DNA from: a virus
Virus record (IMG/VR): IMGVR_UViG_3300025598_000231
Coordinates: 1-20,289 of that record
Strand: one strand, 5' to 3'
Length of the DNA stretch: 20,289 nt
The notes under the pieces are model-generated. The model worked only from the letters and a program-made list of their open reading frames with translations. It was not told the DNA's origin and did no database searches. This document shows, piece after piece, positions 4,947 through 13,148 of the stretch (position 1 is the stretch's first letter; each line of letters opens with the position of its first letter). Both the position numbers and the translations under genes were made by a program.

Positions 4947-4958
4947 GTGACCCCCCAA

Positions 4959-4979
4959 TTTACGCTATACTAGCGTAAA
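4959..4979. promoter_or_regulatory. Perfect 9-bp inverted repeat upstream of the lysozyme gene
   Basis: Arms TTTACGCTA (4959-4967) and TAGCGTAAA (4971-4979) are exact reverse complements around a TAC centre. The sequence TATACT (4966-4971) across the centre resembles a sigma-70 -10 box, but no convincing -35 box lies upstream. There is no U-run, so it is not a standard terminator. The AGGAG of the lysozyme gene lies at 4983-4987, three bases after the second arm. It may be an operator, or an RNA hairpin that affects lysozyme translation; neither is shown. Confidence 0.5.
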
Positions 4980-4992
4980 GAAAGGAGCCAAA

Positions 4993-5511
4993 ATGAAAAA
5001 AACTTTAGTAGTACTAATGTGGTGTTTAGGCATTATTGCAGCCTTTCACTTCACAAACCGATATACCCAGATTGAAGAAAACCTCATGGCAATCGCAAAA
5101 TCCACACTAGACTTAATTACCAAAGAAGAAGGTTCACGCAACAAGGCGTACCAAGACTCCAAGGGTCTTTGGACGATTGGTGTTGGCCACCTCATCAAAA
5201 CCGATGAAGAGTATCTGCTGACAGCCACCCTGACAGATGATCAGGTAGAAGAGCTGCTTAGGAAGGATTTAAAGTGGTGTAGCGAGGCCGTAGAGACCTC
5301 GGTAAAGGTACCCCTCCAGCAACACCAATTCGACGCCCTGTACAGCCTCTGTTTCAATATTGGAGGCACTAATTTTTCTAACTCTACCGTAGTTAAGAAA
5401 ATCAATCAAAATGACATGCAGGGCGCAGCGGATGCGATCCTAAACTGGAATAAACCAGAAGTACTTATCAACCGCCGCAAACGCGAACGGGCATTGTTTT
5501 TAGGGGCGTAA
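4993..5511 (+). CDS. Endolysin, GH24 (T4-type) lysozyme with signal-anchor-like N-terminus
   Basis: This 172-residue muramidase cuts the glycan strand of peptidoglycan between MurNAc and GlcNAc. The catalytic set E-8-D-5-T is intact: E46, D55 and T61 within EEGSRNKAYQDSKGLWTIGV. The C-terminal part has QHQFDALYSLCFNIGG and the closing RRKRERALFL typical of GH24 phage lysozymes. Residues 1-20 (MKK, then TLVVLMWCLGIIAAFHF) form a weakly hydrophobic signal with no clear cleavage site, as in SAR endolysins that leave the membrane at lysis. Three cysteines (C11, C96, C120) are present, C11 inside the anchor. AGGAG five bases upstream supports this start; ATG 5086 (Met32) would give a soluble lysozyme without the anchor. 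A terminator overlaps the stop. Confidence 0.9.
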   Translation: MKKTLVVLMWCLGIIAAFHFTNRYTQIEENLMAIAKSTLDLITKEEGSRNKAYQDSKGLWTIGVGHLIKTDEEYLLTATLTDDQVEELLRKDLKWCSEAVETSVKVPLQQHQFDALYSLCFNIGGTNFSNSTVVKKINQNDMQGAADAILNWNKPEVLINRRKRERALFLGA

Positions 5512-5523
5512 ACCCCTGTTTTT
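5502..5523 (+). terminator. Rho-independent terminator overlapping the lysozyme stop codon
   Basis: AGGGG (5502-5506) pairs with CCCCT (5513-5517) around the loop CGTAAA, and TTTTT follows at 5519-5523 after one G. The stop codon TAA (5509-5511) lies in the loop. It closes the fibre and lysis transcription block on the plus strand. The stem is only five GC-rich pairs, so termination may be partial. Confidence 0.65.
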
Positions 5524-5582
5524 GTGCATTAGTAGATATAAGGGCTGATCACCCTACAATCCAATAACCTCGAGGAAAACCC
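5524..5582 (+). promoter_or_regulatory. Leader region before the lysine-rich gene, possible promoter
   Basis: Coming straight after a terminator and before a new run of genes, this gap should hold a promoter. It contains TATAAG at 5537-5542, similar to a -10 box, without a clear -35. AGGG (5541-5544) can pair with CCCT (5552-5555) around the loop CTGATCA. GAGGA at 5572-5576 is a good ribosome binding site for ATG 5583. The stretch around GCATTAGT (5527-5534) recurs in the gap at 12644-12692. Confidence 0.4.
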
Positions 5583-6581
5583 ATGGACGGCTTTAAGACA
5601 TTACCCAAGATGCAGTGCTTCAAAGAAGGCGGCTCTGTAGCAGTTAAAAACATTATGAAAAAAGGCGGCATCGCTAAAAAAGGCGTGCCTGCTGTTAAAG
5701 AAAAAGATGAAGGTCCTAAGCGCCAAATGGTTGCTGGCCTAAAAGGCACAACGCCTGATGTTGCTGATGAAACCACAACTACCATGAAAAAAGGCGGCCG
5801 TGCTAAGAAAGCCATGGGTACCGTTCGCAAATATAAAGACGGCGGAGCAGTAGGTGTATACGGCGCTAAGAAAAAATCTGGCGACTACGACAGCATCGAA
5901 AAAGCCAAAGATATCAAGCCAGCTAAAGCTGCAGCTCCATCTAAGGCAGCTGTTAAGCCAGCCATGAAGGGCAGCGACGTTGCTAAAGAAAAAAGCAAAC
6001 CCGCTGGCTCATCAAAAGCTAAGAAAGTAAGCGACAACGCTAAAATGGCTGATGCTAAGTCTGGCGCTAAAGGCGGCCCAAACAAGTACAAAAAAGGCGG
6101 TGAAGTAAAAAAGATGGCTGCCGGTAGCCAAACAGCTCCATTAGCTACCGGCCCAGATTCCATCGCACGCGCCCATCAATTAGCATTAATGCAAGAGATG
6201 CGTAGATTGCCTCCTGCAATGCAATTACAGTTGTTGCAACAACAGCAACGAATTGGCGGCACAGGTGATATGAACGCGTTGGCTAATCAAATGAATCCAC
6301 AACCACAACAGCAACCAATGCCTACTAACATGGGCACCATGGGTCAAAAGCGTGGTGGTAAAGTTAAAAAGCATGCAGCTGGTGGCAAAATTGGAAAAAT
6401 TGCAGCAGGTTTATTTCCGGGTGCATTGTTTGGGCTTCCAACAGCTGCCGCAATATACAGCAATGAAAAAGCTAAAGATGCAAAAGTAGAAGAAGAAACC
6501 GCTGCTAAAGATAAAGAAGCAGAAACTAAATCTGCTCCTGTTGCTAAAAAACGTGGCGGTAAAGCTACAAAGGTTTGCTAA
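5583..6581 (+). CDS. Lysine-rich repeat protein with eight K-x-G-G-type motifs, function unknown
   Basis: This 332-residue protein has about 58 lysines (17%, hand count) and no fold I can name. The double glycine recurs in a fixed setting: KEGGSV (G16-17), KKGGIA (28-29), KKGGRA (71-72), KDGGAV (87-88), KKGGEV (172-173), KRGGKV (258-259), AAGGKI (267-268) and KRGGKA (325-326), usually followed by K-K within four residues. Residues 90-170 are an Ala/Lys/Ser-rich linker, about 194-245 are Gln/Met/Pro-rich, and 273-292 are hydrophobic ([20 protein letters not shown]). It sits first in a block leading into neck and tail genes. A DNA- or capsid-binding virion protein is possible, but this is inference. 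GAGGA six bases upstream supports the start. Confidence 0.7.
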
Positions 6582-6582
6582 T

Positions 6583-6750
6583 ATGCCAATCGAATCTAAA
6601 CAACAGCAAAAAGCCATGTACGCTGCTGCCGCAGGCAAAAGCAACATTGGCATTCCTAAGAAGGTAGGCAAGGAGTTTATCAAAGCTGGTAAAGCTAAAG
6701 CCAACCTGCCACAGAAGGTAATGAAGAAAGCAGCTGGAAGAGGACGCTAA
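6583..6750 (+). CDS. Small DUF3008-like protein (55 aa)
   Basis: The likely start is ATG 6583, one base after the preceding stop; a longer reading from 6541 would run through the end of the upstream gene and loses the conserved opening. The product begins [20 protein letters not shown], then has [15 protein letters not shown] and a basic end ([11 protein letters not shown]). The order M-P-x-x-S-K-x-Q-Q-x-x-M ... I-P-x-x-V-G-K-E-F resembles small phage and bacterial proteins of the DUF3008 type, for which no role is known to me. It lies between two lysine-rich GG-motif proteins and its stop overlaps the next start (TAATG), so the three are probably made together. Confidence 0.65.
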
Positions 6751-7220
6751 TGAAAGATTTTAAACAAAACGTCAAAATGATGTGCGCTGGCGGTCACTAC
6801 AAAGAAGGTGGCGACGTTAAGCAAGACAAGCAAATGATCAAAAAAGCATTCAAGATGCACGATGATCAGCTGCATGAGAAAAAGCACACCGATTTGTCTA
6901 AGTTAAAAACTGGCGGCAAAGTTAAAAAAATGGCTGAAGGTAGATTGGTTGATGACATAGATTTTAAAAATGCCAAACCAGTTAAAATGCCATCAGGTGT
7001 TGGAAGAACACCTACGATGAATATTGACGGTAAAGACGTTGAAGTAAGACCGGTTCAGATGCCAACACCTAGACTTAGTGATTTACCAAAAACTGCAAAT
7101 CGTCCTGATGATTTAGTTTATAGATATGCTCCCGGTCAAGGACCAAGCCTATCTGATTGGAAGCGCGGCGCTGCAAGCGGCATGAAAAAGGGCGGTAAAA
7201 CTAAACGCGGGAAAAAATAA
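6750..7220 (+). CDS. Second lysine-rich GG-motif protein, function unknown
   Basis: This 156-residue basic protein shares its N-terminal layout with the product of 5583-6581. Here [20 protein letters not shown] leads into GDV; there [12 protein letters not shown] leads into FKEGGSV. Further GG motifs are KTGGKVKK (G55-56) and MKKGGKTKRGKK at the C-terminus (G148-149). Residues about 65-140 are less basic and contain several prolines, with no family I recognise. Its ribosome binding site (AGAGGA, about 6739-6744) is good. The stop TAA is followed by one codon and then the GTG start of the connector gene in the same frame. The GG-motif proteins may be paralogous at their N-termini; function is not known. 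Confidence 0.65.
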   Translation: MKDFKQNVKMMCAGGHYKEGGDVKQDKQMIKKAFKMHDDQLHEKKHTDLSKLKTGGKVKKMAEGRLVDDIDFKNAKPVKMPSGVGRTPTMNIDGKDVEVRPVQMPTPRLSDLPKTANRPDDLVYRYAPGQGPSLSDWKRGAASGMKKGGKTKRGKK

Positions 7221-7223
7221 GCC

Positions 7224-8297
7224 GTGGCCTATTCTAATACATACAACCAGACTACGGTCGACGTTGATCAGATGATTTCCTACGCCTTTCGTGGTGCAGG
7301 AAAGCAAGCTGAAGAAATCACACCTGAGTACGTACAAGCCGCTAAGCAGGCGCTGTTCTACATTTTGCAGAACTCGTCTAACCGCGGCGTTAACCTATGG
7401 TTGTTAGAGAATATCATCCTTGGTGCGCAAAGTAATCAGCAGATCCTTACTATGCCAATGGGCACGATTGACGTGCGCGAGGCAAATTGGATTTACATCC
7501 AGACACCACAAATTGAGACAGCACTGCCTGTTGACAATTCAACTTCACCAAACGTGTTTGATCAAAACTTAAATGGTTTTGGTACAACTACGGTTAGTGA
7601 AAACTGGTTTGGTGCTCAATATCAAAATCAAACTAGCGTGTATTACGTTGGTATCAATGCCTATGCACCAAACTACGGTAGCGTAACATACACTGGTTTG
7701 GTATATGAAACAAGTAACGATGGTATTACATGGGAACAGCAAGCTGCGTTTGATACGCCACTAACCTTGCAAGACCGTACATGGTCTTACATTCCAATTA
7801 ATCTGACCATTCCGTATTACTTCCATCGTATTCGTTCTACCACATCGACGCCATTTTCATGCCGTCAAATTGTTTTTGCACAATCACAACAAGTTATTCC
7901 ATTAGCACGCTTAAACCGTGATGACTACTGGAACTTACCAAACAAACAGTTTCCATCTGTACGTTCTTTGCAATACTGGTTTAACCGTCAGATTGATCCA
8001 GAGATGTATATCTGGCCTGTACCATCCAACGACTTCCAAGTATTCCAGCTCATTATTGAAAAGCAGATGATGGACGTTGGCTCGTTGACTAATCAGTTAT
8101 ACCTGCCCAACCGTTGGATCCCCTACATTCAAGCTGCGCTCACCCATGAGTTGGCGATGCAGTTGCCCGGTGTTGATATGGGGCGCGTTGCTTACTTGGA
8201 AAAATTAGCACTTAATCTACGTACGCAAGCCGAAGAAGAAGATCGTGATAAGTCACCAATCTACTTCCAACCTAACTACAGCTACTATACACGATGA
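7224..8297 (+). CDS. P22 gp4-like head-to-tail connector protein with inserted beta domain
   Basis: The 357-residue product opens with an all-helical pattern typical of gp4-like tail accessory factors: DVDQMISYAFRGAGKQAEEI, then a helix with AAKQALFYILQNSSNRGVNL and W59. These proteins form a ring beneath the portal and hold packaged DNA in the head. P22 gp4 is about 166 residues; the extra length here lies mostly at about 105-222, a beta-rich insert with TGLVYETSNDGITWEQQAAF and WSYIPINLTIPYYFHRIRS, resembling a discoidin-like sandwich. The helical part resumes with IPYIQAALTHELAMQLPGVD and YLEKLALNLRTQAEEEDRDK. The start is GTG at 7224; no ATG occurs in frame until 7272. The ribosome binding site is poor. 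The stop overlaps the next start by 4 nt. Confidence 0.8.
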   Translation: MAYSNTYNQTTVDVDQMISYAFRGAGKQAEEITPEYVQAAKQALFYILQNSSNRGVNLWLLENIILGAQSNQQILTMPMGTIDVREANWIYIQTPQIETALPVDNSTSPNVFDQNLNGFGTTTVSENWFGAQYQNQTSVYYVGINAYAPNYGSVTYTGLVYETSNDGITWEQQAAFDTPLTLQDRTWSYIPINLTIPYYFHRIRSTTSTPFSCRQIVFAQSQQVIPLARLNRDDYWNLPNKQFPSVRSLQYWFNRQIDPEMYIWPVPSNDFQVFQLIIEKQMMDVGSLTNQLYLPNRWIPYIQAALTHELAMQLPGVDMGRVAYLEKLALNLRTQAEEEDRDKSPIYFQPNYSYYTR

Positions 8298-8914
8298 CCA
8301 GCGCATATCAAATGACCTACGATAATCTCGTAGCTGACATTATTAACTATATGGAGCGTAATGACGCCCAGTTTGTAGCTCAAATTCCAAACTTAATTGG
8401 TTTGGCTGAGTCTGCTATTGCAGCGCAGTTAAAAACGTATTTGCAGTTAACCGTAGTTGAAACAACACTGGCCACTAATCAAGTGGTACTAAACAAACCA
8501 GCACGCTGGCGTAAAACAGTTTCAATGAAGTATAATGGCCAACCTATTTTACTGCGCAGCCAAGATTATGTAGCGCAATATCAAGCTGAATCATCCTCTG
8601 GCACACCGCTTTACTATGCTGATTACGACTATAACAACTGGGCGTTCGCACCAAAACCTGATGCCACATACCCTATTGAAATTTTGTATTACAGCGAAAT
8701 TCAGCCATTAGATTCACAAAATCAACAAAATCTGTTCACGCGCGAATGCCCACAGGCGATGTTGTTTGGCTCTTTATTGCAAGCTCAAGGCTACTTAAAG
8801 GCTTTGGACAAGCTACCAATTTGGAAACAATATTACGACGATTCGTTGGCAGCACTCAAGCAAGAAGACAACCAACGCCGCATCGACAGAAACGTAACGG
8901 TTCAGGAACCCTAA
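8294..8914 (+). CDS. Tail adaptor-like protein (SU10-type adaptor family)
   Basis: The 206-residue product begins with helices (YDNLVADIINYMERNDAQFV, LIGLAESAIAAQLKTYL). A central beta section follows with LNKPARWRKTVSMKYNGQPI and TPLYYADYDYNNWAFAPKPD, then YPIEILYYSEIQPLDSQNQQ. It ends in helices (LFGSLLQAQGYLKALDKLPI). The P-x-x-W-R-K ... Y-Y-A-D-Y-D-Y-x-x-W-x-x-x-P-x-P-D-A-x-Y-P-x-E-I-L-Y-Y pattern is one I associate with the adaptor family of short-tailed phages, placed between connector and nozzle. The ATG lies in a 4-nt overlap with the gp4-like gene, so their amounts are probably coupled. Assignment rests on motif memory and neighbours. Confidence 0.7.
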   Translation: MTSAYQMTYDNLVADIINYMERNDAQFVAQIPNLIGLAESAIAAQLKTYLQLTVVETTLATNQVVLNKPARWRKTVSMKYNGQPILLRSQDYVAQYQAESSSGTPLYYADYDYNNWAFAPKPDATYPIEILYYSEIQPLDSQNQQNLFTRECPQAMLFGSLLQAQGYLKALDKLPIWKQYYDDSLAALKQEDNQRRIDRNVTVQEP

Positions 8915-8917
8915 TAT

Positions 8918-10222
8918 ATGTCACAATCATTTGTATCCCCGTTTACTGGTACCGTTATTGAACCAACGGATGTATCCTATTACGCCTTAGCGTTTAGTTC
9001 TAACACCCAACTTTACTGGCCTCAAGTAGTCAGCGGCACGCAGGTCCCTGCATCACGCATTATGGATTGCACGCCGTCTACTAGCAGTTTGTCAATTGCC
9101 CTACCAGACGCAACTCAAGGATCACTTGGCAGTGATATATTTTTCCGCAATAAAGGCTCTTCAGCATTTACCGTTACAGATATTAATGGTTTAAATGGTG
9201 TTACGGTTAATTCTGGCGTAACAGTTTATTTTTACCTAACCAATAATACCGCTAACGTTAATGGTAGCTGGGGCGTTATTACCTTAGGTACTGGCACTTC
9301 ATCTGCTGATGCGTCTTCGTTGGCTGGCGCAGGATTGACTACAGTATTGGGTCAGTTAGCTGTTACTAGTAACGTTGTTGAAACATCAGTATCACCTTCA
9401 ATTACAAATAGTAGCCGAGCTAATACATACGTATGGGTTGGCGGCGTTGGCACATTCACACTGCCAAGCCTTACCACTTTGTCCCCCGGTTGGTGGATTG
9501 GTTTTAGAAATGGTGGAACTGGCACGTTAACAATTGCAACGCAGACTCCATCAAAAATTAATGGTCTGTCTAGCATTACTGCTAACCCCGGCGATTCTGG
9601 ATTTATTTACTACGAATCAAGCACAGGTAACTTTTTTACTGTTGGTTTAACAAATCAAAACAACGTTACTTTTACCTCTGGAACGTATGACGTTGATAGT
9701 ATCACTGGCAGCACGTTTAATTTAACAACGTACGCACCAACCATTCAAACCTATGTTGCTCTATCTGGCACACGTACAACAGGTTTAAGTATTACGCTTC
9801 CAGCAATCACTCAGTTGTATGTGCTAGTTAATAATACAACATCAGGTTCTTACAACCTTTCATTTAATACAACTGGTAGCAGTTCTGCTCCAGTGGTTTT
9901 ATCTGCTGGTCAAGTTGCGTTAGTGCTTAGCGAAGCGTCTGGTCTATTTACGCTTTCAACAACTAACGCTGGAGTATTTTTTGCTCAAAATGGATCCGCT
10001 ACAGCGCCATCATTTTCGTTTATAAGCGACAACGCAACAGGTATGTATTTACGTGGAACCAGTATTTTAGGTTTAACTGCAAACGGTACTGAAATATTAG
10101 ATTTAAACGGTACAAACGCATTAGCTCCAGTAATTAGCACCCCAGCATCGCTTTTAGTTGGTGGGTCGGAAACAGTTACTGGCACGCTTACAGCGGGACT
10201 TATTAGTGGTGGGACGTTCTAA
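8918..10222 (+). CDS. Beta-repeat virion structural protein (tail fibre or spike type)
   Basis: This 434-residue protein has almost no charged residues and is rich in Thr, Ser, Asn and Gly. Residues 1-50 (SPFTGTVIEPTDVSYYALAF and a QLYWPQ motif) look like a virion-attachment lead. Three similar beta units follow at about 57-123, 168-244 and 277-350. Each has a L-P-x-x-T strand, a glycine-rich turn with F-x-N or V-N-N, and a late aromatic strand. The end contains GSATAPSFSFISDNATGMYL (residues 359-378), a motif common near C-termini of phage fibres. Its place between adaptor and nozzle genes suggests it is attached to the short tail, perhaps as a fibre or decorating protein (inference). Confidence 0.65.
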   Translation: MSQSFVSPFTGTVIEPTDVSYYALAFSSNTQLYWPQVVSGTQVPASRIMDCTPSTSSLSIALPDATQGSLGSDIFFRNKGSSAFTVTDINGLNGVTVNSGVTVYFYLTNNTANVNGSWGVITLGTGTSSADASSLAGAGLTTVLGQLAVTSNVVETSVSPSITNSSRANTYVWVGGVGTFTLPSLTTLSPGWWIGFRNGGTGTLTIATQTPSKINGLSSITANPGDSGFIYYESSTGNFFTVGLTNQNNVTFTSGTYDVDSITGSTFNLTTYAPTIQTYVALSGTRTTGLSITLPAITQLYVLVNNTTSGSYNLSFNTTGSSSAPVVLSAGQVALVLSEASGLFTLSTTNAGVFFAQNGSATAPSFSFISDNATGMYLRGTSILGLTANGTEILDLNGTNALAPVISTPASLLVGGSETVTGTLTAGLISGGTF

Positions 10223-12393
10223 TGGCTGTCGCGCCAGCACAACCAGCGCAACAGCAACAAATTCAGCCCCAGTATAGTCAAGTTTACAAAATGGCTTTAC
10301 CGGGCGGGATAAAACGCGACGGTACTATATTCGAAACACCAGAATACACTGATGGTGTATGGTGTCGTTTTCAGCGTCAAGTGCCTAAGAAAATGGGTGG
10401 CTATCAGGAGATATTTTCTACGTTTGATGGAATTATGCGTGGCATGACCATGAATGGCTACAACGGCGTAAATTATGTGTTTGCTGGAACTCGAGTTGGT
10501 TTAGATGTATTTGCAACTGGACAATCGTTAGGAATTGGTAGCGGCCCATACCGCGCTATATTTATTTCTGGCTATTCTCAGTTTCCAGTTGCTAACACAA
10601 CCATTAGTGCTAGCAATACAACGTCGTTTACAATTAATAGTTCTAATGCAACTCCAGTTAGTTATACACAGCCGTTTTCAAATGGTACGCAAATCATTTT
10701 TTCACAAAGCGGCACTGTAACACCTTACACAGTAACAAATTCTACATTCACATCACCCAACACAGTAGTCACTTTTACACCAGCACATTCTGGTTCTATT
10801 AGTAATGTGTGGTTGTATAACTATAACTTTTCAGCAAATAGCAATTTACTTTGGCAGTTTGATTATCAATATAACCCACAGGGTGGCGCGCTTAATTTGC
10901 TTGCACACCCCGGTTTAAATTTAAACAATATTGATAATGCAATTAAGTCTCAAGTATACATTGGTTCGGTATTACCTAATGCGTCTGAACAATGGACGTT
11001 TTATGGATTAGCTGATACCACTGGGGTTGCTCCAACTTACCAAGCTATTGCAGTGGATGGTGGTGTATGTTCGTTGCACCCATTTATTTTTGTGTATGGT
11101 TCTAACGGATTTATTGCTAATAACAACGTAAGTTCAATATATGCCAACCAATCTTTGACAGATTGGAATGGACCATTAGCAAACCAAGTTAACGTTGCTA
11201 CTGGTAAAGTAGTTTTTGGTATGCCAATCCGCGGTGGTGCTTATTCACCAGCAGGACTATTTTGGGCAACCGATAGTTTGATCCGTGTGCTATTTACTGG
11301 CAGCGCGCCAAACTATTGGACATACGATATTGTTTCTAGCCAGATCTCTATTATGTCATCTCAATCTGTTGTTGAGATGGATGGATTGTATTATTGGATG
11401 GGTGTTGACCGTTTCTATTTATACGACGGTCGTGTTACGGTTGTGCCAAATGATAAAAACGTAAACTGGCTATTTAACAACCTTAATTATCAACAGCGCC
11501 AAAAAGTATGGGCGACCAAAGTTCCACGTTACAATGAGATTTGGTTCTTTTATCCCCGTGGCACAGCGACAGAATGTACTGATGCTATTATTTATAATGT
11601 CAAAGATAAACTTTGGTATGACGCTGGCCAAGCTGTTGGTGCACAACGTTCTTGCGGATACACCACAGAAGTATTCCCAACACCATTATGGGCTGATTGG
11701 AATTATAACGTAACGTTTAGTCAAGACTACGTTACTATTAATCATCCAGCTTCATTACCTGCAGCAAATTCTAGTCAGTTATATTTTGCTGGCGATTTAA
11801 CGCCAACATTTTATCCCGGATCTTATCTAACATTTAGTCAAGCGCCGGGAAATGCAGTATTTCAAATTGCTAATGCTAAATTTTATTCTAATGCAGCAAT
11901 TGGCGCTAATGGTGTAACGTTAGTAACCAGCGCTACATCGTTTGGCGTGGCCCCGTTGGCAAACACTTTGGCGTATCAAATTCAAGGTGGCTACCCAATC
12001 TGGCAACATGAGACTGGGTTAGATCAAGTATCGTTTAAAGAACAAACGGCTATCTATTCAAGCTATACTACTGGCGATATTAGCTGGGTTGGCGGTACAA
12101 CGACACCAGCCAACACACAAGCTATTGGTAATAATCGCCGTATGCACATTCGACGCATTGAGCCTGATTTTGTGCAAGCTGGCAATTTAAGTTTAACCAT
12201 TATTGGTCGTAAATTTGCTGCATCACAAGTAGAAGATTCAGGACCATACGTATTTAGCCCATCTACTGAAAAAATTGATTTGCGCGTTGAGCATCGTGAA
12301 GTTCAATTTCAGGTAGTATCTAACGAGATTGGCGGTAACTATGAACAAGGTCGTTTATTAATTACCCAAGAGTTAGGCGATGAACGTCCTTAA
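10222..12393 (+). CDS. Tail nozzle-like protein (P22 gp10 / T7 gp12 type)
   Basis: The 723-residue product starts with a Gln/Pro-rich lead and then MALPGGIKRDGTIFETPEYT, WCRFQRQVPKKMGGYQEI (residues about 24-64). This opening is one I recognise from packaged-DNA stabilisation or tail-nozzle proteins of short-tailed phages. The rest is beta-rich with propeller-like repeats, including GLYYWMGVDRFYLYDGRV, YNEIWFFYPRG and IIYNVKDKLWYDAG, consistent with the hexameric nozzle that extends the tail tube. Residues about 115-190 are a Ser/Thr/Asn-rich insertion. It follows the beta-repeat gene with a 1-nt overlap and overlaps the next small gene by 14 nt. Family assignment is by pattern and gene order. 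Confidence 0.75.
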   Translation: MAVAPAQPAQQQQIQPQYSQVYKMALPGGIKRDGTIFETPEYTDGVWCRFQRQVPKKMGGYQEIFSTFDGIMRGMTMNGYNGVNYVFAGTRVGLDVFATGQSLGIGSGPYRAIFISGYSQFPVANTTISASNTTSFTINSSNATPVSYTQPFSNGTQIIFSQSGTVTPYTVTNSTFTSPNTVVTFTPAHSGSISNVWLYNYNFSANSNLLWQFDYQYNPQGGALNLLAHPGLNLNNIDNAIKSQVYIGSVLPNASEQWTFYGLADTTGVAPTYQAIAVDGGVCSLHPFIFVYGSNGFIANNNVSSIYANQSLTDWNGPLANQVNVATGKVVFGMPIRGGAYSPAGLFWATDSLIRVLFTGSAPNYWTYDIVSSQISIMSSQSVVEMDGLYYWMGVDRFYLYDGRVTVVPNDKNVNWLFNNLNYQQRQKVWATKVPRYNEIWFFYPRGTATECTDAIIYNVKDKLWYDAGQAVGAQRSCGYTTEVFPTPLWADWNYNVTFSQDYVTINHPASLPAANSSQLYFAGDLTPTFYPGSYLTFSQAPGNAVFQIANAKFYSNAAIGANGVTLVTSATSFGVAPLANTLAYQIQGGYPIWQHETGLDQVSFKEQTAIYSSYTTGDISWVGGTTTPANTQAIGNNRRMHIRRIEPDFVQAGNLSLTIIGRKFAASQVEDSGPYVFSPSTEKIDLRVEHREVQFQVVSNEIGGNYEQGRLLITQELGDERP

Positions 12394-12643
12394 GGGCCAA
12401 CAGTTTTTTCCGTTTTTGCCAGATTATTCTAGCTGGGATGAATTTAATGGAAATCTGGTATTGTTTTATAGCCAGACCCACATACCGTTTGCTCCAGAAG
12501 ATGAGTGGCAAAAGGTTGCTAGAGAAATAGCGCAGTCTGCAGCGTTTCAACCGTATGGTACGCCAGACCCGCAGACTTACGATAGCTGGCAAGATTGGGC
12601 GCATGAGTTTGGAAATTTAGTTAACGGCCCTTTAAAAAGATAG
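12380..12643 (+). CDS. Small conserved protein next to the nozzle gene (87 aa)
   Basis: The product is aromatic and acidic: FFPFLPDYSSWDEFNGNLVL, an IPFAPEDEWQKVAREIAQSA helix, and TPDPQTYDSWQDWAHEFGNL. Repeated W-D/W-Q pairs and the Y-x-x-W-x-D-W-A ending recur in small proteins I associate with gp10-like genes in short-tailed phages, but no function is known to me. The 14-nt overlap with the nozzle gene suggests coupled translation and perhaps a complex with the nozzle. It is the last gene before the gap at 12644-12692. Confidence 0.65.
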   Translation: MNVLKGQQFFPFLPDYSSWDEFNGNLVLFYSQTHIPFAPEDEWQKVAREIAQSAAFQPYGTPDPQTYDSWQDWAHEFGNLVNGPLKR

Positions 12644-12692
12644 GGCGTAAACACTCTTATTTTTGCATTAGTGTATGTAGGAATAGGGGAAA
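12644..12692 (+). promoter_or_regulatory. Intergenic element, weak terminator-like hairpin plus leader
   Basis: GGGCGTAAAC (12643-12652) and TTTTTGCATTAGT (12660-12672) match the sequence behind the lysozyme gene. AGGG (12642-12645) can pair with CTCT (12654-12657) with one G-U pair, followed by TATTTTT, a weaker version of that terminator. The region then runs into AGGGG (12685-12689), the ribosome binding site of the next gene. It may end some transcripts and start others. Confidence 0.4.
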
Positions 12693-13148
12693 ATGATGAT
12701 TACATTTCAAAAAGAGGCGCCCATGCCTTTTGCCAATGAAGCGATGCAGCTGTTCAAAGATCACTATGACGAGATCGCTGAACGTACAGATGTAATAAAA
12801 TTGGATCCAAACCTTGAACAGTACAATATGTTGTACGACAGGGGTATGCTAGAAATCCACACCGCCAGAGATGACGGTAAATTGATTGGTTATAGTTTAT
12901 GGTTTGTTATAAACCACATTCACTATAAAAAAAGTTTAACAGTTACTTCAGACGTTTTATACATTAGTCCGAATTACCGTAAAGGTATGTTGGGCTACAA
13001 ATTTATAAAATGGACTACAGAAGAAATTAAAAAGCGTAAGCCCCAACGTATTCAGTTTCGTATAAAACCATTTTTAGATTATGGTAAATTGATAGAACGC
13101 CTTGGTGGTAATTTTTTTGAAAAAACATATTCAATAGTAATGGAATAA
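12693..13148 (+). CDS. GNAT-family N-acetyltransferase
   Basis: This 151-residue protein has the GNAT layout. The acceptor half carries FKDHYDEIAERTDV. Strands beta 2-4 include LEIHTARDDGKLIGYSLWFV (about 53-72) and DVLYISPNYRKGMLGYKFIK (87-106), where R96-K-G98-M-L-G101 fits the acetyl-CoA pyrophosphate-binding loop. It ends LIERLGGNFFEKTYSIVM, as GNAT proteins often do. The family moves acetyl from acetyl-CoA to an amine; the target is unknown. Placement between the nozzle block and the internal virion proteins suggests action on a virion or early host protein, but that is inference. Starts at 12693 and 12696 are both served by AGGGG; ATG 12723 with AGAGG is a shorter alternative. Confidence 0.8.
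   Translation: MMITFQKEAPMPFANEAMQLFKDHYDEIAERTDVIKLDPNLEQYNMLYDRGMLEIHTARDDGKLIGYSLWFVINHIHYKKSLTVTSDVLYISPNYRKGMLGYKFIKWTTEEIKKRKPQRIQFRIKPFLDYGKLIERLGGNFFEKTYSIVME

Follow-up and report, generated by a model that had tools for sequence, protein, structure and literature searches.

The 20,289-base stretch of viral DNA considered here (IMG/VR record IMGVR_UViG_3300025598_000231, hereafter the window) carries a run of tailed-phage lysis and structural genes, and two of its intergenic gaps hold copies of one and the same element. By sequence, the element consists of GGGCG, a spacer of exactly 17 nucleotides (nt), the box TGCATTAGT, and TAGG or TATG placed 35 nt after the first G. Each copy is likely to be a late promoter used by the host RNA polymerase together with a phage-encoded sigma factor, and together the copies probably form a family of late promoters that depend on a phage sigma factor and are fused to terminators. 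In the mechanism that we propose, the phage sigma factor would bind core polymerase and open the element sites, transcription would begin at the A of position 36, and every late gene block would receive its own transcription start. In about one third of the copies the spacer is predicted to pair with GGGCG as a hairpin, mostly followed by T residues, so that the same bases would also end the upstream transcript. The most compact copies would combine a stop codon, a terminator, a promoter and a leaderless start codon in about 40 bases, making them unusually dense regulatory DNA. An earlier description of the element was not found in the accessible text of the open-licence papers searched. Its recognition offers a transcription plan, read from sequence alone and with starts predicted to the base, for phages that have no close cultured relative in the collection searched.

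Two copies of the element in the window

Both gaps contain GGGCG, 17 bases, GCATTAGT and then TAGG or TAAGG, all on the plus strand. In copy 1, which overlaps the end of the lysozyme gene (4993-5511, stop codon TAA at 5509-5511), the -35-like box GGGCG lies at 5504-5508, at the exact spacing to GCATTAGT (5526-5533), and the extended -10-like box TGCATTAGT at 5525-5533. The corresponding features of copy 2 are GGGCG at 12643-12647, GCATTAGT at 12665-12672 and TGCATTAGT at 12664-12672. The preliminary description of this DNA had listed GGGCGTAAAC, a T-run, TTTTTG, GCATTAGT and a G-rich stretch as words common to the two gaps, and all of them are present in both; exact copies of GGGCGTAAAC are confined in the window to 5504-5513 and 12643-12652. 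When a weight matrix was trained on the 136 elements, out of 151 collected, that are unlike the window's copies, it scored 45.8 at 12643 and 41.4 at 5504, while the next-best site in the window reaches -5.3 and the best score in 200 dinucleotide shuffles is 18.4. The two copies are not due to chance.

Spacing, recurrence and placement

The distance between the two halves of the element is nearly invariant. When the virus records of IMG/VR were scanned with GGGCG N{10,26} GCATTADTANNNNTAGGA, the spacer was 17 nt in 124 of the 126 matches listed (119 loci, not deduplicated), the two others being 12 and 26 nt. Bacterial and archaeal genomes yielded 29 matches to this pattern, spread over 13 spacings, with six matches at 17; four of these six come from a single betaproteobacterial metagenome-assembled genome and may represent co-binned phage contigs. 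Seeding with the 3' half only gives a comparable picture. Among loci fetched by protein similarity, GGGC[AG] stands at exactly -22 in 24 of 28 distinct sites, the remaining four comprising one GGGCT at -22, one GGGCT at -23 and two sites with neither. In a larger set that was not fetched by pattern, GGGC is found at exactly -22 in 46 of 51 non-redundant sites and every other GGGC offset occurs at most once. A looser seed lacking TAGG, which admits background, still places 55 of 85 sites at -22, with five at -23 and 23 devoid of a nearby GGGC. Position 21 is T in all 78 elements of the sequence logo although it lies outside the seed, and positions 31-34 vary among the same elements.

The preliminary description had suggested that the shared words mark transcription-unit borders, perhaps with a phage-specific promoter, and that further copies would be found at gene-block borders. 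Both expectations are supported by related contigs, where copies mostly lie between genes with a same-strand gene ahead, keep the 17-nt spacer and occur in sigma-linked genomes. The window and 18 relatives, some of them close to it, together contain 73 elements, two to eight per record. The -10/start stretch lies outside called open reading frames (ORFs) in 54 of the 73, compared with 3.5 % for random stretches, and for 66 of them the next gene is on the same strand; the sites recur ahead of late genes, on the coding strand. The word GCATWAGT is missing in two of the first 14 contigs (G008 and G014), and a wider pattern recovered the element of G008 (L111). In the stretch 3' of the lysozyme gene the element was recognisable by eye in all 31 relatives (16 distinct sequences), and around it the hairpin arms, the length of the T-run and the leader all vary.

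Predicted transcription start

In 35 of the 151 elements TATG replaces TAGG, which creates an ATG at positions 36-38 with a T and a G that were not part of the seed. All but one of these ATGs open a frame of at least 50 amino acids (aa). On reading the list, 30 of the frames fall into two families, one of about 63 aa starting MKDFISEII or similarly (20 frames) and one starting MxxYxYQIxGALE (10 frames). At least one of the others, the ATG at 36-38 in L018, looks like chance, since the gene starts further downstream, as in the window. Such an arrangement suggests leaderless messages and hence a transcription start at position 36. Counted from this start, TG falls at -15/-14, ATTAGT at -12 to -7 and the upstream box at about -35, with 17 bases between the boxes, a geometry which suggests ordinary sigma-type recognition. 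By analogy with the ATG-bearing copies, transcription is predicted to start at 5540 in copy 1 and at 12679 in copy 2, where a 14-nt leader with AGGGG would precede the gene at 12693.

A terminator-like hairpin inside the element

Part of the family carries a predicted hairpin. When GGGCG was folded together with the spacer, 52 of the 151 non-redundant elements formed a hairpin at or below -5 kcal, while the number after spacer shuffling averaged 12.9 over 200 rounds and never exceeded 20. In 47 elements (11.4 expected) such a hairpin is followed by at least four T in the next seven bases, and 41 elements are essentially devoid of a stable hairpin. Since the 151 elements had been chosen by GGGC, the set seeded without it provides a fair test: it contains 46 sites with GGGC at -22, of which 16 reach -5 kcal or lower and 12 lack a stable hairpin (weaker than -1 kcal). 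GGGC is kept at these 12 sites, so the box is not explained by the hairpin. The excess of hairpins is real, but a hairpin is optional. Frames with at least 60 open codons have their stop codon beginning at -5 to +20 of the element in 86 of the 151 elements, and in 51 of them the stop is a TAG that ends on the first G of the element, as does the upstream TAG at 12641-12643 in copy 2.

The preliminary description had rated copy 1 a good terminator and copy 2 a weaker one, which agrees with the terminator scan: a G+C hairpin at 5501-5518 was detected in copy 1, the hairpin and its T-run together occupying 5501-5523 between the two putative promoter boxes, and copy 2 was not listed. Over the whole window the scan is near chance (27 sites, 20.8 expected). 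Could the element be an intrinsic terminator only, placed at the ends of gene blocks, with GCATTAGT as a conserved tail devoid of promoter function? The excess of hairpins over shuffles and the good terminator-like site of copy 1 would fit this explanation. It is nevertheless very unlikely, given the 12 hairpin-less sites just mentioned, a conservation that runs about 20 nt beyond the T-run, and the start codons placed on the conserved stretch in 35 of 151 elements. The earlier term "terminator" is apt for a feature superimposed on some copies but does not describe what the shared words are for.

A linked sigma factor that lacks region 4

Of the 13 records compared at the outset, four (G002, G003, G004 and G005) encode a sigma factor of 191-196 aa. 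One member was scanned against Pfam, and its regions 1.2, 2 and 3 score above the cut-off. The family profile matches 72 distinct PDB sequences, of which the 60 listed are all named sigma factors, and aligns with bacterial sigma factors to about residue 178. Among 80 relatives the length ranges from 187 to 231 aa; 68 of them share an EPxSL motif followed by only 11-15 residues and, therefore, region 4 is missing. The protein has the sigma-70 regions 1.2, 2 and 3 but not region 4, the usual reader of a -35 box. Contigs of at least 20 kb that bear this sigma gene number 51, and 48 of the 50 that were scanned match a loose pattern of the element (129 matches; none for the reversed pattern). The contig left out, L312 (G005), has five elements in the 19-record set. 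The nearest members of the phage collection by terminase, Caulobacter phage RW (41 % identical) and ctpbd312, an environmental genome (54 %), carry neither this sigma gene nor the element; their best scores are about -18 or below.

Many podophages transcribe their genes by means of their own single-subunit RNA polymerase, and an extended conserved core that ends in TAGG near the start and is preceded by a T-rich stretch could also be read as a promoter for a T7-like enzyme of this kind. Such an enzyme was not detected: the family PF00940 was matched in none of 15 contigs in a scan whose T7 control was positive, nor in any of 15 records, the window included, in a scan that covered a partly overlapping set without a positive control. 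Two boxes 17 nt apart are, moreover, the arrangement of a sigma factor, and it is a sigma gene that is linked to the element. We regard a T7-like promoter as highly improbable.

The lack of region 4 brings to mind T4 gp55, which is likewise devoid of this region. The sigma factor might then read only TATAAATA (positions 29-36), which we liken to the T4 late motif and which is exact in some copies, with transcription starting at about 42 and GGGCG serving as an activator site. The excerpted text of PMC7892883 describes T4 late promoters as a -10-like element with no conserved -35 box, which would suit this proposal. Against it, an ATG at 36-38, as found in 35 of 151 copies, would sit upstream of such a start, positions 31-34 vary, and the distance to GGGC is rigid. 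Recognition of the T4 late type is accordingly unlikely.

Evidence against a sigma-dependent promoter

Several observations weigh against the proposal that each copy is a late promoter for host polymerase with a phage sigma factor. The patterns used to pick the 151- and 78-element sets included GGGC and portions of the 3' half, and these positions are therefore conserved by construction; the scan permitting spacers of 10-26 nt and the sets seeded with the 3' half serve as controls for this selection bias. The sigma gene was not found in the other nine of the 13 records first compared, including the window, itself a fragment; the nine are taken to be fragments. Where it is found, the factor lacks the normal reader of a -35 box, and two of the scanned sigma contigs (G054 and G056) have no match to the element. 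Conversely, the sigma gene is present in eight and missing in 13 of the 21 contigs searched that had been fetched by the 17-nt-spacer pattern. Most of these 13 are taken to be fragments. Three of the sigma-less contigs measure 38-50 kb, with an opposite-strand gene block that looks incomplete. This imperfect match between element and sigma gene is the weakest link of the sigma case.

No close cultured relative was found in the phage collection searched, and the base composition of phage RW may be partly behind its missing element. Covariation between factor and site speaks for the sigma link, but weakly. Among the 50 sigma contigs scanned, T or A replaces G at position 28 in 5 of 5 contigs whose sigma factor belongs to a clade with a changed residue 429 and in 0 of 43 others; A at this position is also seen outside this set, e.g., in L102 and L171. 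The change has one evolutionary origin on the tree. Another sigma clade goes with CGTATTAG instead of TGCATTAG, and G031, outside that clade, also has CGTATTAG. Finally, the site of copy 2, ahead of the acetyltransferase-like gene at 12693, was compared in 25 relatives of that gene; 12 have the element and 13 lack it, so that copy 2 is either younger or often lost.

What reads the upstream box

The sigma factor lacks region 4 and yet the -35 box is rigidly spaced, which implies that something else should read GGGCG. One possible answer, which we hold tentatively, is split recognition: the truncated sigma factor (regions 1.2-3) would read the extended -10 box and a separate phage protein would read GGGCG. 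If so, placing a terminator within the promoter would insulate each late block and tie it to this machinery. Candidates for the second protein are two neighbours of the sigma gene and, at four loci, a free-standing region-4-like protein.

The first neighbour is a small protein, typically of 64-70 aa and at most 90, encoded beside sigma in 78 of 80 loci (e.g., L251:10886-11077), on the same strand and 0.5-2.8 kb downstream from the start of the sigma gene. As to the two misses, locus L263 ends at sigma, and L257 ends before the place that the gene occupies in its sister L258. It is predicted to adopt a beta-beta-beta-alpha fold (predicted local distance difference test, pLDDT, 95.5), with middling structural matches (best Z 6.5), and neither of the two members scanned against Pfam has a family match above the cut-off. 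A marginal match (E 0.008) in ctpbd312, where neither sigma nor element is found, implies that this protein may not be tied to sigma. The second neighbour measures 90-125 aa and occurs at 65 of 79 loci; its model is middling (pLDDT 73.9) and has no PDB match at E<=0.001. Free-standing region-4-like ORFs of 54-56 aa, one of them above the Pfam cut-off, lie at a distance of about 4.5-5.3 kb downstream from the start of the sigma gene (L299:15318-15485, L285:14643-14804, L295 and L297). They were rejected as a general answer to the reading of the -35 box because no more than four of the 80 sigma loci have them.

Leaders, gaps and neighbouring genes

The predicted transcript of copy 1 would carry a hairpin, GGG-CTGATCA-CCC (5542-5554, plus strand), close to its 5' end. 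Across ten distinct leaders the sequence of the stem differs yet still pairs, and the loop retains GATCA. Further downstream, the ribosome-binding stretch ahead of the gene at 5583 is an 8-bp palindrome, CCTCGAGG (5568-5575, plus strand), and relatives have other palindromes in its place, namely CCTATAGG, CCTTAAGG and CTCTAGAG. Another class of elements, found at L060 (G001 28973), G035 58142, G062 51219, G072 10916 and G076 30442, precedes a conserved leader of about 90-110 nt that looks structured (AGGAAGATTAATCCC...CTTCCCGG...). Rfam searches on seven sources, this class included, returned nothing at gathering scores.

Large gaps are few in the window, as had been pointed out before: in the ORF map, only 4947-4992, 5512-5582 and 12644-12692 reach at least 38 bases. 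The first of these had been grouped with the other two but contains a different hairpin and falls outside the element family. It reads CCCCCCAA, followed by the hairpin TTTACGCTA-TAC-TAGCGTAAA directly before the ribosome site of the lysozyme gene. By eye, a hairpin occupies this place in nine of 13 distinct stretches, the window type included, with differing stem sequences. On the opposite strand the window holds the end of a DNA polymerase gene. A scan of the window for sigma70-type promoters proved uninformative (37 matches, 46.2 expected) and was discarded.

Comparison with known systems

T4 late transcription (gp55, gp33 and gp45) resembles the system proposed here in that a phage specificity factor is employed, in T4 together with phage co-factors; a TATAAATA-like stretch is also present in some element copies. 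It differs in that no conserved -35 box is described for T4 late promoters in the excerpts of PMC7892883.

A parallel of another kind is provided by p7 of phage Xp10, a phage protein acting on the host polymerase, which is similar in size to the small protein encoded beside sigma. The model of the latter aligns to two p7 structures, 6j9e_J (Z 5.0, root-mean-square deviation 2.7, 57 residues) and 2mc5 (Z 4.6), with middling Z values that are tied with those of unrelated proteins. Sequence searches show no relation between the small protein and p7, and the likeness of the model is a lead only.

Parallels are also found in two phages whose late promoters are described in the excerpted text of PMC8948821, on which the following statements draw. 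Salmonella phage 7-11 also relies on late promoters for the host polymerase together with a phage sigma factor (SaPh711_gp47), and these promoters are bipartite, GTAAtg-(16)-aCTA, and lie upstream of late genes. The sequences of the boxes are unrelated to those of the present element, and gp47 has region 4 whereas the element-linked sigma factor does not. Fused terminators and leaderless starts, which are predicted here, were not found described for 7-11 in that text. In phiEco32, on the other hand, middle and late genes are driven by a sigma factor without region 4 (phi32_gp36), as proposed for the element. The window itself encodes an SU10-type adaptor (gene at 8294), and SU10 belongs to the phiEco32 group. 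The phiEco32 promoter is a single element, tAATGTAtA, with no -35 box, unlike the rigid -35 box observed here. In phiEco32 and 7-11 a -35 box is present where region 4 is present, and the missing region 4 is offered as the explanation for the missing box of phiEco32 (PMC8948821). An element with a rigidly spaced upstream box, linked to a sigma factor devoid of region 4, runs against this explanation and poses the question of what reads GGGCG.

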